Below, in pieces: positions 26,009-59,232 of a DNA stretch of 64,000 bases (position 1 is the stretch's first letter; every line of letters starts with the position of its first letter). The notes under the pieces were generated by a model. It made no database searches. It had not been told where the DNA came from and worked only from the letters and a program-made list of their open reading frames with translations. Position numbers and translations under genes: made by a program. Origin of the DNA: Streptococcus cristatus ATCC 51100 (GTDB lineage Bacteria; Bacillota; Bacilli; Lactobacillales; Streptococcaceae); assembly GCF_011612585.1 (NCBI RefSeq), contig NZ_CP050133.1:310001-374000 (forward strand), written 5' to 3'.

Positions 26009-26565
26009 TGGCTAAAGCACTGATTTCCATTGATTATACAGTTGATTTTGTTGCAGATGAGGGCAAGTTGACCGCAGGAGCGCCTGCTCAGGCGATTTCT
26101 GAAGCCATTGCTCAGGTGACCGAGGCGGTATTTGATCGAGGCGACTATATCTTCTTTACTATTGATGCCCACGATGAAAATGATGCCTTTCATCCTGAGA
26201 GTAAGCTGTTTCCACCTCATAATATCAAAGGAACTAGCGGTCGCAATCTTTACGGTCCTTTGGCCGATTTTTATGACAAGCATCAAGCAGACTCACGGGT
26301 CTTTTGGATGGATAAGCGTCATTATTCTGCTTTTTCCGGCACAGATTTAGATATCCGCCTGCGGGAAAGAAAGGTAGATACGGTCATTTTGACTGGAGTC
26401 TTGACAGATATTTGCGTCCTGCATACGGCGATCGATGCCTATAATCTTGGTTACCAGATTCAGGTGGTAGAGCCGGCAGTGGCTTCTCTGTCAGAGGAAA
26501 ATCACAAATTTGCCTTAAACCACTTGCAAAATGTCCTGGGTTCGACTATAATAGATACAATTTAA
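26008..26565 (+). CDS. pncA: Nicotinamidase / isochorismatase-family cysteine hydrolase
   Basis: This 185-residue protein has the expected triad: D9 in ALISIDYTVDF, K103 in WMDKRHYSAF and C136 in TDICVLHTA. The metal-binding set D52/H54 appears in TIDAHDEND. Nicotinamidase turns nicotinamide into nicotinate for NAD salvage. The start overlaps the codY stop, so it is expressed with codY. The 3' end of the gene contains the promoter of the following T-box operon. Confidence 0.9.
   Translation: MAKALISIDYTVDFVADEGKLTAGAPAQAISEAIAQVTEAVFDRGDYIFFTIDAHDENDAFHPESKLFPPHNIKGTSGRNLYGPLADFYDKHQADSRVFWMDKRHYSAFSGTDLDIRLRERKVDTVILTGVLTDICVLHTAIDAYNLGYQIQVVEPAVASLSEENHKFALNHLQNVLGSTIIDTI
26524..26552 (+). 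promoter_or_regulatory. Promoter of the T-box/aspS operon inside pncA
   Basis: TTGCAA (26524-26529), 17 bp, TATAAT (26547-26552), inside the last codons of pncA. Transcription would begin near 26559, just before the T-box leader. Confidence 0.75.
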
Positions 26566-26575
26566 GAGTAAAAGA

Positions 26576-26782
26576 GAAGCAGAGTAGGCTTGCTGACTTG
26601 CACAGAGAGTACTGATAGCTGAGAGCAGTACCAAGAAAGCAAAACCGAAGAACATGTTTCATAATCTTTTGTGTGACCAAGCACAAACGTCGCTCACGTT
26701 ACGAGCTCAGAGGCTGCCTTTTAGGGTAGCGAATAACAGTGGTACCACGGCTTTCGTCTGTTTCAGAGACGAAAGCTTTTTA
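26576..26782 (+). promoter_or_regulatory. T-box riboswitch (tRNA-sensing leader) before aspS
   Basis: Stem I: GAAGC (26576) pairs with GTTTC (26656). The specifier loop has AGAGTA on one side and GAAGAACA on the other. GGCTTGC (26587) pairs with GCAAAACC (26639), CTTG with CAAG, and GTACTG with CAGTAC, capped by a GCTGAGAG-type loop. Placed against the known glyQS specifier (GAA-A-GGC-A), the triplet here is AAC (26651-26653, Asn); one base upstream reads GAA (Glu). The T-box core AGTGGTACCACGG is at 26739-26751. A terminator GCTTTCGTCT / AGACGAAAGC + T5 follows at 26750-26781. Uncharged tRNA would allow read-through into aspS. Confidence 0.93.
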
Positions 26783-26874
26783 TTTTGCAAAAGGAAAAGT
26801 GGAGATGCTGGAAGAAAGTTGCTAATATGCCTAAGGACAGGGCGGCTTGCAAATGGATTTGAGAGGGAAAGAAC

Positions 26875-28611
26875 ATGAAAGAAATTTTTATCGGAAACTA
26901 TGGTTTAGAGCAGGTCGGACAGACCATGACCGCAACTGGCTGGGTGGCCAATATCCGTAATCACGGCAAGTTAGCCTTTATTGAATTGCGGGACCGCGAG
27001 GGCTTGCTGCAGGTCTTCGTTGGCGGTGAGATTGAAGATTTTGCTAAGCTAGAAGACATTGGCAAAGAGGATGTTATTTCAGTGACAGGGCAAGTAGTTC
27101 AGCGGGAAGAGCGTTTTGTCAACAAGGCCATCAAGTCTGGTCAGGTTGAGCTAAGGGCAGAGAAGATTGAGGTCATTGCTAGCAGCAAGGCATTGCCTTT
27201 TGAACTGGACCAGCATGCCCATACTGGGGAAGATCTGCGTCAGAAATACCGCTATCTGGACTTGCGTCGTGAGAAGATGACACATAACCTCAAACTTCGT
27301 CATCAGGTCACCTCAACCATTCGAGATTATTTGAACGGTTTGGACTTTTTGGAAGTGGAGACGCCTTATCTGACCAAGTCAACTCCTGAAGGTGCTAGAG
27401 ATTTCTTGGTTCCTAGTCGGATCTTTAAAAATCAATTCTATGCGCTGCCTCAGAGCCCACAGATGCTCAAGCAGTTACTGATGGGAGCTGGCCTCGAGCG
27501 CTATTATCAGATTGTTCGTTGTTTCCGTGACGAAGATTTGCGGGGCGATCGTCAGCCAGAGTTTACTCAGGTGGACTTAGAGCTGAGTTTTGCCAGCGAA
27601 GAAGAAATCCGAGCTCTGGTTGAAGCCATGCTCAAGGCTGTTGTTAAGAAAACTCATGGTTTAGAGTTGACAGAAGCTTTTCCGACTATCAGCTATGAAG
27701 AAGCTATGAGCCGCTTTGGTTCTGATAAGCCAGATACACGCTTTGGTTTAGAGTTGAAGAGTTTGACGGATTTGTGCCAGTCCAATGATTCGCTTCTCAT
27801 CAAGAAAGCTTTGGACAACCAAGAGGAAGTGATGGGAATCTGTTTGCCAGATGCAGCTAGTGCTTTTAGTAAGAAACAGCTGAGCCACTACTATCAGGAA
27901 ATGAAGGAATTTGGCTGCAGTCGTTTCGCCAGTCTAAAGGTTGAAAATGGCCAATTGGTTGGTGATTTGGCTAGCACCTTTGAGGCTGAGAGTCAGGATT
28001 TACTAGCACGTTTTGAAGCCACGGATGGAGACTTGATTCTGCTAGTCATGGCTAAGAAGCGTCGGGCTCAGGAAGCTTTGGGACATCTGCGTCTAGAAGT
28101 CGCAAAAGCTTTGGATTTGATTGACCTGAGTCTGCTTCATTTCCTCTGGGTTGTGGATTGGCCGCTGCTGGAGTGGAATGAAGACCAAAACCGCTATCAA
28201 GCCATGCACCATCCTTTCACCCAGGGCATTTTTGAAGAAGGTCAGGAGCCAGATCAATATCGCAGCCATGCCTATGACATCGTCTTGAACGGCTATGAAA
28301 TTGGTGGAGGGAGTCTGCGGATTCATGATCGGAAGGCTCAGGAAGCGATGTTTGAGCTATTGGGCATGAGCCGAGAAGACTATGAGCGAGACTTTGGTTT
28401 CTTCCTAGAAGCCTTGGAGTACGGCTTCCCACCACACGGTGGCTTGGCTCTGGGCTTGGATCGCTTGGTTATGATTTTGACTGGGGAAGAAAATATCCGA
28501 CAAGTCATTGCTTTTCCGAAAAATGGTACTGGCTTTGATCCTATGCTTGAAAGTCCGAGTTTGGTTGACCAAAGACAGCTCAAAGAACTGTATTTGGAAT
28601 TGAAGAATTAG
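26875..28611 (+). CDS. aspS: Aspartyl-tRNA synthetase, probably non-discriminating type
   Basis: This 578-residue bacterial-type class II synthetase has an anticodon OB fold (1-105), TPEGARDFLVPSR, the motif 2 region RCFRDEDLRGDRQPEFTQVD, a GAD insert, and motif 3 GLALGLDRLVMIL. In the anticodon domain, GWVANIRNHGKLAF has His30 where discriminating enzymes usually have Leu; His here is linked to enzymes that also charge tRNA-Asn. With an Asn-type T-box upstream and gatCAB downstream, it probably makes Asp-tRNA-Asn for amidation. Streptococci usually also carry an aspS near hisS, so this may be the second copy. Confidence 0.9.
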   Translation: MKEIFIGNYGLEQVGQTMTATGWVANIRNHGKLAFIELRDREGLLQVFVGGEIEDFAKLEDIGKEDVISVTGQVVQREERFVNKAIKSGQVELRAEKIEVIASSKALPFELDQHAHTGEDLRQKYRYLDLRREKMTHNLKLRHQVTSTIRDYLNGLDFLEVETPYLTKSTPEGARDFLVPSRIFKNQFYALPQSPQMLKQLLMGAGLERYYQIVRCFRDEDLRGDRQPEFTQVDLELSFASEEEIRALVEAMLKAVVKKTHGLELTEAFPTISYEEAMSRFGSDKPDTRFGLELKSLTDLCQSNDSLLIKKALDNQEEVMGICLPDAASAFSKKQLSHYYQEMKEFGCSRFASLKVENGQLVGDLASTFEAESQDLLARFEATDGDLILLVMAKKRRAQEALGHLRLEVAKALDLIDLSLLHFLWVVDWPLLEWNEDQNRYQAMHHPFTQGIFEEGQEPDQYRSHAYDIVLNGYEIGGGSLRIHDRKAQEAMFELLGMSREDYERDFGFFLEALEYGFPPHGGLALGLDRLVMILTGEENIRQVIAFPKNGTGFDPMLESPSLVDQRQLKELYLELKN

Positions 28612-28629
28612 CCGGAAATATGGTAAAAT
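28600..28629 (+). promoter_or_regulatory. Promoter between aspS and gatC
   Basis: TTGAAG (28600-28605), 18 bp, TAAAAT (28624-28629) with TG in the extended position. The start of transcription would be near 28636. gatCAB may thus be transcribed without the T-box too. Confidence 0.55.
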
Positions 28630-28813: not shown

Positions 28814-29116
28814 ATGAAGATTACTCAAGAAGAAGTAAGTCACGTTGCAAAACTGTCAAAACTGGCTTTTTCACCAGAAGAGACAGCTGAGTTTGCGACA
28901 ACCTTGTCTAAAATTGTCGACATGGTCGAATTGCTCAATGAAGTGGACACAGAGGGTGTGCCTTTCACTTCTAATGTGGCAGCTAATATCAACTATATGC
29001 GAGAAGATGTGGCTCAGCCAGGCTGGAACCGAGAAGAGCTTTTCCAAAATGTACCTGAAAAAGAGCGGGGCTACATCAAAGTGCCTGCCATCCTAGATGA
29101 CGGAGGAGATGCCTAA
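28814..29116 (+). CDS. gatC: Asp/Glu-tRNA amidotransferase subunit C
   Basis: This 100-residue protein starts [20 protein letters not shown] and contains [38 protein letters not shown] and [10 protein letters not shown], the GatC pattern. It wraps around GatA and holds it to GatB in the complex that amidates Glu-tRNA-Gln and Asp-tRNA-Asn. The ribosome site AAAGGAATC precedes it. It shares one base with gatA. Confidence 0.96.
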
Positions 29117-30582
29117 TGACTTTTAATCACAAGACCATTGAAGAGTTGCATGATCTGCTGGTCAAGAAAGAAATTTCTGCAGTAGAGTTAACTCAGGCGA
29201 CTTTGGCAGACATCAAAGAACGTGAAGGAGCTGTGGATAGTTTTATTACTGTCAGCGAAGAAGAAGCATTGGCTCAGGCAGCAGCTCTGGATGCTAAGGG
29301 CATTGATGCTGACAATCTCATGAGCGGAATTCCGCTGGCGGTTAAGGACAATATCTCAACCAAGGGGATTTTGACAACAGCTGCATCTAAAATGCTCTAC
29401 AACTATAAACCAATTTTCGATGCGACCAGTGTAGAGAAGCTCTATGGTAAGGATATGATTATCGTTGGGAAAACCAACATGGACGAGTTTGCCATGGGGG
29501 GATCCAGCGAAAACTCTTACTTTAAGACGACTAAGAATGCTTGGGACAGTAGCAAGGTTCCTGGTGGCTCATCTGGTGGTTCAGCGACAGCTGTTGCCTC
29601 TGGTCAGGTTCGTCTGTCACTGGGTTCAGATACGGGTGGTTCTATTCGCCAGCCTGCTTCCTTTAACGGTGTAGTCGGCCTCAAGCCAACTTACGGACGG
29701 GTTTCTCGTTTTGGTCTCATTGCTTTTGGTTCTTCTTTAGATCAGATTGGGCCTTTCTCTCAGACGGTTAAGGAAAATGCCCAGCTTTTGAATGTTATTT
29801 CTGGTAATGATCCTAAGGATTCGACATCATCACAAGAAGCAGTGCCAGACTTTACTAGCAAAATTGGCCAAGACATCAAGGGTATGAAGATTGCCTTGCC
29901 TAAGGAATACATGGGTGAGGGAATTGACAGCAAGGTCAAGGAAACGATTCTGGCAGCAGCTAAGCACTTGGAAAGCCTAGGTGCGATTGTTGAAGAAGTT
30001 AGCCTGCCCCACAGCAAGTATGGAGTGGCTGTTTACTATATCATTGCTTCTTCTGAGGCTAGCTCTAACCTGCAGCGTTTTGATGGCATTCGCTATGGCT
30101 ATCGTGCAGAAGGCATTGAAAATCTAGAAGATGTCTATGTCAAATCTCGCAGCGAAGGCTTTGGTGAAGAGGTGAAACGCCGCATCATGCTGGGGACATT
30201 CAGCTTGTCGTCTGGTTACTACGATGCTTACTTCAAGAAAGCTGGTCAGGTTCGGACCTTGATTATGCAAGATTTTGCTAAAGTATTTGAAAAATATGAT
30301 TTGATCTTAGGCCCAACTGCACCAACTGTAGCTTATGACTTGGGCAGTCAAAACCAAGATCCAGTGGCCATGTATCTGGCTGACCTTTTGACCATTCCAG
30401 TCAATCTGGCTGGTCTGCCTGGCATTTCAATCCCAGCTGGCTTTGCAGATGGTCTTCCAGTTGGCTTGCAGCTGATTGGGAACCACTTTGATGAAGCGAC
30501 CATCTATCAGGCAGCCGCAGCATTTGAATCGACGACTGACTATCACAAACAGCAGCCAGTTATCTTTGGAGGTGAAAAATAA
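29116..30582 (+). CDS. gatA: Asp/Glu-tRNA amidotransferase subunit A
   Basis: This 488-residue amidase releases ammonia from glutamine for the complex. It has the Ser-cisSer-Lys amidase triad: Lys in [12 protein letters not shown], the Gly/Ser-rich signature [16 protein letters not shown] and the nucleophile in [14 protein letters not shown]. Length and order are as expected. Start and stop share bases with gatC and gatB, so the three subunits are translated together. Confidence 0.97.
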
Positions 30583-32015
30583 TGAACTTTGAAACAGTTA
30601 TCGGACTGGAAGTCCATGTTGAATTGAAGACTAATTCAAAAATTTTCTCACCGGCTCCAGCTCACTTCGGTGAAGATCCAAATGCCAATACCAATATCAT
30701 TGACTGGTCCTTCCCGGGTGTCCTGCCTGTTATGAACAAGGGTGTCATTGACTATGGTATCAAGGCTGCTTTGGCTTTGAACATGGATATTCACCAGAAG
30801 ATGCACTTTGATCGTAAGAATTATTTCTATCCGGACAATCCAAAAGCCTATCAAATTTCTCAGTTTGATGAGCCGATTGGTTACAATGGCTGGATTGAGA
30901 TTGAGCTAGAAGATGGCACGACCAAGAAAATCCGTATCGAGCGGGCCCACTTGGAAGAAGATGCTGGAAAGAATACCCACGGCAGCGATGGCTACTCTTA
31001 TGTGGACCTCAACCGCCAAGGGGTGCCTCTGATTGAGATTGTATCGGAAGCGGATATGCGCAGTCCAGAAGAAGCTTATGCTTACCTGACTGCTCTCAAG
31101 GAAATCATCCAGTACACGGGTATTTCTGATGTTAAGATGGAAGAGGGCTCTATGCGTGTCGACGCCAATATTTCCATCCGTCCTTACGGCCAGGAAGAGT
31201 TTGGTACTAAGACTGAGCTGAAAAACCTCAACTCCTTCAACTTTGTCCGCAAGGGTCTAGCATTTGAGGAAAAACGCCAAGCGGAAATCCTACGCAGCGG
31301 TGGTCAAATCCGTCAGGAAACCCGTCGTTATGATGAAGCAACTGGCGAAACATTGCTCATGCGGGTTAAGGAAGGTTCAGCGGACTACCGTTACTTCCCA
31401 GAGCCTGATCTGCCGATCTTTGAGATTGAGGATGCTTGGATTGAGCAAGTGCGCGACAGTCTGCCAGCCTTTCCAAAAGAGCGCCGTGCTAAGTATGTGG
31501 GCGACTACGGTCTGTCTGACTACGATGCCAAGCAGCTGACAGCTACGAAGGCTGTGTCAGACTTCTTTGAAGCAGCTGTTGCTGCAGGTGGAGACGCTAA
31601 GGCTGTCTCTAACTGGCTCCAAGGAGAAGTGGCTCAATACCTCAATGCAGAAGGCAAGACTATCTCTGAGATTGAGTTGACGCCTGAGAACCTGACTGAG
31701 ATGATTGCCCTGATTGCAGACGGAACGATTTCTTCTAAGATTGCCAAGAAGGTCTTTGTCCATCTGGCTAAAAATGGCGGTTCTGCTAAGGAATATGTAC
31801 AAAAAGCAGGCTTGATTCAAATCTCAGATCCTGCCCAGCTATTGCCAATCATTCAACAAGTCTTTGCGGATAATGAAAAAGCCATCAATGACTATAAGGG
31901 CGGCAACAAGAATGCAGCCAAGTCCTTGATTGGTCAGCTCATGAAGGCTACCAAGGGCCAAGCCAACCCGCAAGTAGCACAAAAACTGCTCAATGAAGAG
32001 TTGGAGAAATTATAG
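30582..32015 (+). CDS. gatB: Asp/Glu-tRNA amidotransferase subunit B
   Basis: This 477-residue subunit binds the mischarged tRNA and activates its side chain with ATP. It starts [20 protein letters not shown] and has the GatB cradle motifs [29 protein letters not shown] and [15 protein letters not shown], followed by a helical domain and the C-terminal YqeY-like tail ([17 protein letters not shown]). It completes the gatCAB set. Confidence 0.97.
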
Positions 32016-59123: not shown

Positions 59124-59134
59124 AGTAGGCGGTA

Positions 59135-59207
59135 TTGTTTACCCCATTTGTAAGGCCCCGGAACCTTTCAAATAACCCGCGGACCGGAACATCCGCCCTG
59201 TAAACAA
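59135..59207 (+). promoter_or_regulatory. L13 leader (autoregulatory ribosomal-protein leader)
   Basis: The outer helix TTGTTTAC / GTAAACAA encloses inner helices ATTTG / CAAAT and GCGGA / TCCGC. Position, size and closing helix match the L13 leader motif of Firmicutes, in which free L13 represses its own operon. Confidence 0.85.
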
Positions 59208-59232
59208 AAACGATATTCATATAGGAGAAATC

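Follow-up and report, generated by a model that had tools for sequence, protein, structure and literature searches.

A T-box leader with an asparagine specifier precedes a second aspartyl-tRNA synthetase gene in streptococci that lack asnA

In the stretch of Streptococcus cristatus DNA analysed here (64,000 nucleotides, hereafter the window), an aspS gene and the gatCAB genes lie downstream of what a first-pass annotation took to be a T-box leader at 26576–26782. Its specifier region contains the tetranucleotide GAAC (26650–26653), in which an Asn codon, AAC, overlaps a Glu codon, GAA, one base earlier. The locus raises the questions of which tRNA is sensed by this leader and why a gene for an aspartyl-tRNA synthetase should carry an Asn signal. 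The first-pass annotation proposed that tRNA-Asn and tRNA-Glu are both sensed and that AspRS and GatCAB levels are tied to the two. The parts of the leader and the aspS and gatCAB genes described below were located by computation and are on the + strand.

The leader is a T-box. With the covariance model RF00230, which had been suggested as a check, a match is found at 26560–26764 over model positions 1–219, the whole length of the family, at 72.7 bits (E 6.2e-16, 501 bases scanned). As this is below the gathering score of 93, the leader is not listed in a gathering-threshold scan. The S. cristatus genome has 11 T-box matches, of which three are above the gathering score and eight below it. With the terminator tail the leader RNA extends from 26560 to approximately 26788, and the coordinates given by the first-pass annotation fit this. 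The minimum free energy for 26566–26785 is -63.6 kcal/mol (z -2.44), with 3 of 200 shuffles equally good. In addition to the family model match, Stem I with its specifier loop, the UGGN bulge, the antiterminator and a competing terminator are all present. The antiterminator, AACAG-UGGUACC-ACG...CGU-CUGUU (26735–26762), has its pairing read from the sequence, and its paired columns are invariant among 21 leaders except for 26747 (A in 19, G in 2). The UGGU bulge at 26740–26743 is the predicted partner of the NCCA-3' end of the tRNA. A terminator-like pattern, a hairpin and then a T run, is at 26749–26777, and a possible leader promoter, TTGCAA-17-TATAAT, is at 26524–26552 within the 3' end of the upstream gene, where it matches the consensus pattern in 10 of 12 positions. 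The scanned region contains two terminator-like sites, against 2.3 expected in shuffles, and four promoter-like sites, against 2.3. The argument for both elements is therefore their position in the T-box and not their number.

The frame of the specifier was determined from the covariation of Stem I in 26 distinct leaders, a sample from which L073 and two Floricoccus leaders were left out. Of the cells, 93.6% are paired, compared to 31–45% in slid structures. Cells changed on both sides number 60, against 20.2 in shuffles, and none of 500 shuffles is as high; likewise, none of the 500 reaches the covariation score. The pairs with changes on both sides (11 against 8.4) are equalled in 19 of the 500 shuffles, and 63 of the 500 have at least as many pair types (28 against 25.8). 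The lower helix of Stem I is formed by GAAGCA (26576–26581) and UGUUUC (26655–26660), with 98.7% of its cells paired and three of its six pairs changed on both sides. Two-sided changes support both helices bordering the specifier loop, at columns 3-89, 4-88 and 7-85 below the loop and 14-75 above it. This identifies the eight bases GAAGAACA (26647–26654) as the 3' strand of the loop, in which the AAC triplet (26651–26653) ends one base from the end of the strand. This is also the placement given by the +0 rule of TBDB, which counts the -1 frame as possible as well (PMC7778990). The original placement of AAC in the specifier position is thus confirmed in the standard frame, and GAA can indeed be read by a shift of one base (26650–26652). 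The same eight-base geometry, GAA-N-UGG-G, is seen in three Trp-type leaders of this genome, with the loop identified by eye; N is G, U or A, so these leaders tolerate different bases before the specifier. The Phe leader of this genome has UUC directly 3' of GAA, a register that therefore occurs too.

The name aspS would suggest a response to tRNA-Asp, whose G73 fits UGGU by wobble. However, the AAC is invariant, being present in the standard frame of the T-box in all 37 Streptococcus genomes that carry this gene, and the alignment places it at the same position in both Floricoccus leaders. Control by tRNA-Asp was rejected, there being no GAC or GAU in any frame of the eight-nucleotide specifier strand, and can be given practically no credence.

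Based on its profile match, its place in the tree and its residue pattern, the gene behind the T-box (26875–28611, 578 aa) is a second, bacterial-type aspartyl-tRNA synthetase gene, here called aspS2, and not the housekeeping aspS. The other AspRS of the same genome, at G000:C1:104128, is 51% identical to AspRS2. The nearest named relatives of AspRS2 are in S. cristatus and S. sanguinis, at 96–98% identity. In the tree, the AspRS2 of Streptococcus and Floricoccus group as a single clade (100/100) that includes none of the 24 other AspRS; of the 48 AspRS loci collected, the last 19 (L101–L119), which are distant AspRS at 35–47% identity, are in no count. The possibility that the housekeeping aspS was duplicated recently within Streptococcus was considered and is not supported, since AspRS1 and AspRS2 fall into different clades (100/100). 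Among 284 genomes of the genus, aspS2 is present in 37, all with more than 900 bits, the next match having 623. In L087 and L145, of S. intermedius type, the aspS2 frame is broken early and the one-frame match begins at residue 94. The remainder is 95% identical to the window, whereas S. anginosus is only 84% identical, and gene exchange is therefore possible.

The distribution of aspS2 is related to that of asnA. At an E-value of 0.001, asnA is found in none of the 37 genomes with aspS2, versus 240 of the 247 without it, with 239 of the 240 over the cut-off. The presence and absence of asnA are clustered by descent. A set of 50 genomes, made up of 36 of the genus (6 with aspS2) and 14 reached via aspS2 loci, includes 20 with aspS2, two of which are the same strain. 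AsnRS is over the cut-off in all 50, and asnA is present in 0 of the 20 with aspS2 versus 29 of the 30 without. The search for asnB covered these 20 aspS2 genomes rather than the full set of 37; none has asnB over the cut-off, versus one of the 30 others, which has asnA also. Other matches to the asnB family are mostly to the first 170–190 positions only and are likely to be other glutamine amidotransferases. As the second copy of aspS is found only where asnA is absent, this distribution on its own explains an Asn signal, and in some streptococci aspS2 seems to have taken the place of asparagine synthetase. T-boxes in general and a two-codon T-box in Clostridium were already known, and the apparent replacement of asnA is the more useful result.

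Seven genomes have neither asnA nor a full-length aspS2 (G004, G113, G146, G270, G281, G317 and G319), therefore asnA can be lost without the AspRS2 route. Six of these (G004, G113, G146, G270, G281 and G319) have no aspS2 and are candidate asparagine auxotrophs, or have some other route. In G317 (L155, 1–1125, and L184) aspS2 has been cut to the C-terminal 328 residues, with the first 250 missing. The leader of this shortened gene retains GAAGAACA and the T-box core, and gatCAB is present; loss of the asparagine route is likely in this genome.

A position in the anticodon-binding domain, compared here with a few solved enzymes, is presumably the one that sets recognition of tRNA-Asn. It is His in all 57 AspRS2 rows with a readable N-terminus, from 59 rows representing 37 distinct sequences; the two that cannot be read, L087 and L145, are broken upstream of this point. 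The other AspRS have Leu in 40 of 41 cases, and the exception, G046, has neither asnA nor asnB over the cut-off. Among the solved enzymes, which we take to be from P. aeruginosa, M. smegmatis, E. coli and T. thermophilus, His is present in 4wj3 and 4rmf, both named Asp/Asn, and in 4o2d. Leu is present in 1c0a, 1eqr, 1efw and 6hhv, of which 1c0a and 1efw are named AspRS, and Lys in the AspRS 6wom. The position is not a clean marker, because the Leu genomes G038, G040, G053 and G058 are also without asnA or asnB over the cut-off and because of the Lys in 6wom. The requirements of the two-step route to Asn-tRNA are set out in PMC4206432, and GatCAB is reported to need a U1-A72 pair in tRNA-Asn (PMC4206432, PMC9976931). 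This pair is present in all 19 tRNA-Asn copies read, and GatCAB is present too. AspRS2 is judged most likely to be a non-discriminating AspRS.

It might instead be a discriminating spare AspRS, its link with the loss of asnA being an accident of descent. As AspRS2 is one clade, the association is based on few independent events. The NCBIfam model that is over its cut-off for AspRS2 is that of the general bacterial AspRS and not an Asp/Asn one, with the models for the archaeal-type Asn-charging AspRS below theirs at 247 of 353 bits and 221 of 368 bits. However, an Asn signal makes little sense on an enzyme that serves tRNA-Asp only, asnA is absent from every one of the 37 genomes, and the His is common to the enzymes named Asp/Asn. 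A discriminating AspRS2 is therefore considered very improbable, and the non-discriminating enzyme is retained in what follows.

Whether the GAA is a second specifier depends in part on the genes behind aspS2. As first annotated, the gene order aspS–gatC–gatA–gatB is present in this Streptococcus, with gatC at 28814–29116 (TIGR00135 over cut-off), gatA at 29116–30582 (TIGR00132 over cut-off) and gatB at 30582–32015 (NF004011 over cut-off). Between aspS2 and gatC there is an extended -10 element, TGGTAAAAT (28621–28629), which has the motif TGnTAnAAT and is a possible gatCAB promoter. The motif is present in all 30 aspS2–gatC gaps of the window and the 29 named loci, against 1.2 expected from mononucleotide shuffles. 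Loci without aspS2 carry it too, in all 28 cases no more than 150 bases upstream of gatC, again against 1.2 expected. In 30 further aspS2 loci gatC was found in 29, with the motif within 215 bases of gatC in all 29. This suggests that gatCAB probably keeps its own promoter, the T-box and aspS2 forming a module upstream of it. The switch would therefore not need to watch tRNA-Glu for the supply of Gln-tRNA. With this conserved promoter-like motif of gatC behind aspS2, the proposal that the switch governs the whole of GatCAB is unsupported. The presence of this T-box in front of any gatCAB operon was also considered and rejected, as no T-box core was found in 28 of 29 gatA loci without full-length aspS2, G317 being the exception. 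This was a pattern search, not one with a covariance model, and covered about 1.5 kb at each locus (less at one).

A two-codon T-box, in which tRNA-Asn would read the AAC of GAAC and tRNA-Glu its GAA, has a precedent in Clostridium acetobutylicum (PMC4052509), and its -1 frame is one that TBDB accepts as possible. In vitro, AspRSs are reported to form Glu-tRNA-Glu (PMC6523644). The GAA is present in the window, in 34 of the 37 genus leaders and in the G317 leader, and the U of UGGU would make a Watson-Crick pair with A73, which is present in all 32 tRNA-Glu copies read. tRNA-Asn, by comparison, has G73, with which this U can only wobble. Against a role for the GAA is that it varies beside an invariant AAC. 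The base before AAC in the 37 genus leaders is G in 34, A in 2 and C in 1, so that GAA is missing from three of these, and it is missing from both Floricoccus leaders as well. In the named set of 29 loci, which overlaps the 37 and has 27 Streptococcus and 2 Floricoccus, there are 24 with G, 4 with A and 1 with C. The A is found in S. sanguinis SK1, S. massiliensis and both Floricoccus, and the C in S. ferus; in S. intermedius, which is counted with G, an A replaces the first G of GAAG. The bases other than G occur in four separate places on the AspRS2 tree, counted without a direction of change at its root.

The other Glu feature varies independently. The UGGN sequence is UGGU throughout, except in seven genus genomes (L148–L154) where it is UGGC; five of these correspond by contig to the named caviae, ratti, orisasini, macacae and devriesei loci (L091–L095). 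The UGGC genomes, of the ratti-macacae-devriesei clade, retain GAA, but their C is unable to pair with A73, whereas the leaders without GAA carry UGGU. The bulge thus fits both tRNAs in the clade of the window and not in these seven genomes, and the two Glu features are not linked. The equivalent base in the Trp-type leaders of the same genome is variable, and gatCAB has a promoter-like motif of its own, so Glu or Gln needs do not require the switch. A purine is usual directly after the specifier codon, but in the -1 frame this base is C. A working second specifier, as proposed in the first-pass annotation, is therefore not supported, and a T-box that reads both codons is considered unlikely. 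In a lineage-specific form of this reading, dual sensing would be gained or lost by single bases, so that the clade of the window, with GAA and UGGU, answers both tRNA-Asn and tRNA-Glu, while sister lineages that lack one half sense tRNA-Asn alone; this is doubtful to the same degree. An overlapping second codon in a single sequence is weak evidence for dual specificity, for which SK1, S. massiliensis, S. ferus and S. ratti are a natural set of variants. At L037 (1500–1651), in the genome of the window, a tRNA-Glu gene adjoins a tRNA-Asn gene, the pair that a dual switch as proposed would sense.

The remaining reading, which is held with high confidence, is that expression of a probably non-discriminating AspRS2 is driven through a tRNA-Asn T-box and that this enzyme, together with GatCAB, makes Asn on its tRNA in streptococci without asnA. 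When Asn-tRNA is low, uncharged tRNA-Asn would pair with the AAC and, through its GCCA end, with the UGGU. Binding of tRNA-Asn by the leader, predicted here from the sequence, would allow the antiterminator to form and aspS2 to be transcribed by transcription antitermination. AspRS2 would then put Asp on tRNA-Asn, and GatCAB, expressed from its putative promoter and possibly by read-through from aspS2 if these genes are an operon, would amidate this to Asn-tRNA-Asn. The AspRS2/GatCAB route would thereby replace AsnA as the source of asparagine. The weak point for tRNA-Asn is that in most clades UGGU and G73 can pair by wobble only; such UGGN wobble has been reported by TBDB for Trp T-boxes (PMC7778990). 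The AspRS2/GatCAB route would explain a possible source of asparagine for S. sanguinis, S. gordonii, S. cristatus, S. anginosus, S. ratti and other streptococci without AsnA, in which one RNA switch is predicted to control the asparagine route. A search of the literature, which included PMC2494555 and PMC7778990 but no other T-box catalogue and few subscription papers, found none that deals with this T-box or with the synthesis of asparagine on tRNA in streptococci.

The ten other T-boxes of the S. cristatus genome, which are of the Trp, Ile, Ser, Thr, Ala, Val, Phe and Gly types, have the same architecture and match RF00230, but differ in their specifier and in the downstream gene, as named from protein starts. 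One of the Trp-type T-boxes is located before an apparent ABC transporter substrate-binding protein gene (L003, G000:C1:690969). At L011 (1501–1658) the sRNA SpR19 (RF02447, 1529–1650) is inside a T-box match before an apparent glyQS, therefore the SpR19 sRNA family is probably T-box leader RNA. The window also has a ribosomal protein L13 leader (RF00555) at 59131–59210, with 58.6 bits, above the gathering score.

The T-box of the C. acetobutylicum transamidation operon, including the order of its genes, is reportedly described by Saad et al. in 2012 and 2013. The streptococcal system resembles it in the T-box control and in the tie to tRNA-dependent Asn synthesis. It is unlike it in that the GAA is not conserved in Streptococcus, the UGGN varies, gatCAB has a promoter-like motif of its own and genomes with aspS2 lack asnA. 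In the C. acetobutylicum system both tRNAs have been shown to bind (PMC4052509). In a 2008 survey, T-box control is listed for one of the three aspS genes of this species, and none is reported upstream of the amidotransferase genes examined there (PMC2494555). The AsnRS and GatCAB alongside an AspRS that charges tRNA-Asn, as predicted here, are like the route described for Deinococcus, Thermus, Bdellovibrio and Staphylococcus aureus (PMC4206432, PMC6523644). Bdellovibrio and S. aureus are described as having no asparagine synthetase (PMC4206432, PMC6523644), and in this Bdellovibrio resembles the streptococci with aspS2 (PMC4206432). The second AspRS of Deinococcus and Thermus is, however, archaeal-type and Bdellovibrio has a single AspRS (PMC4206432), whereas the second AspRS in Streptococcus is bacterial-type and under the control of a T-box.
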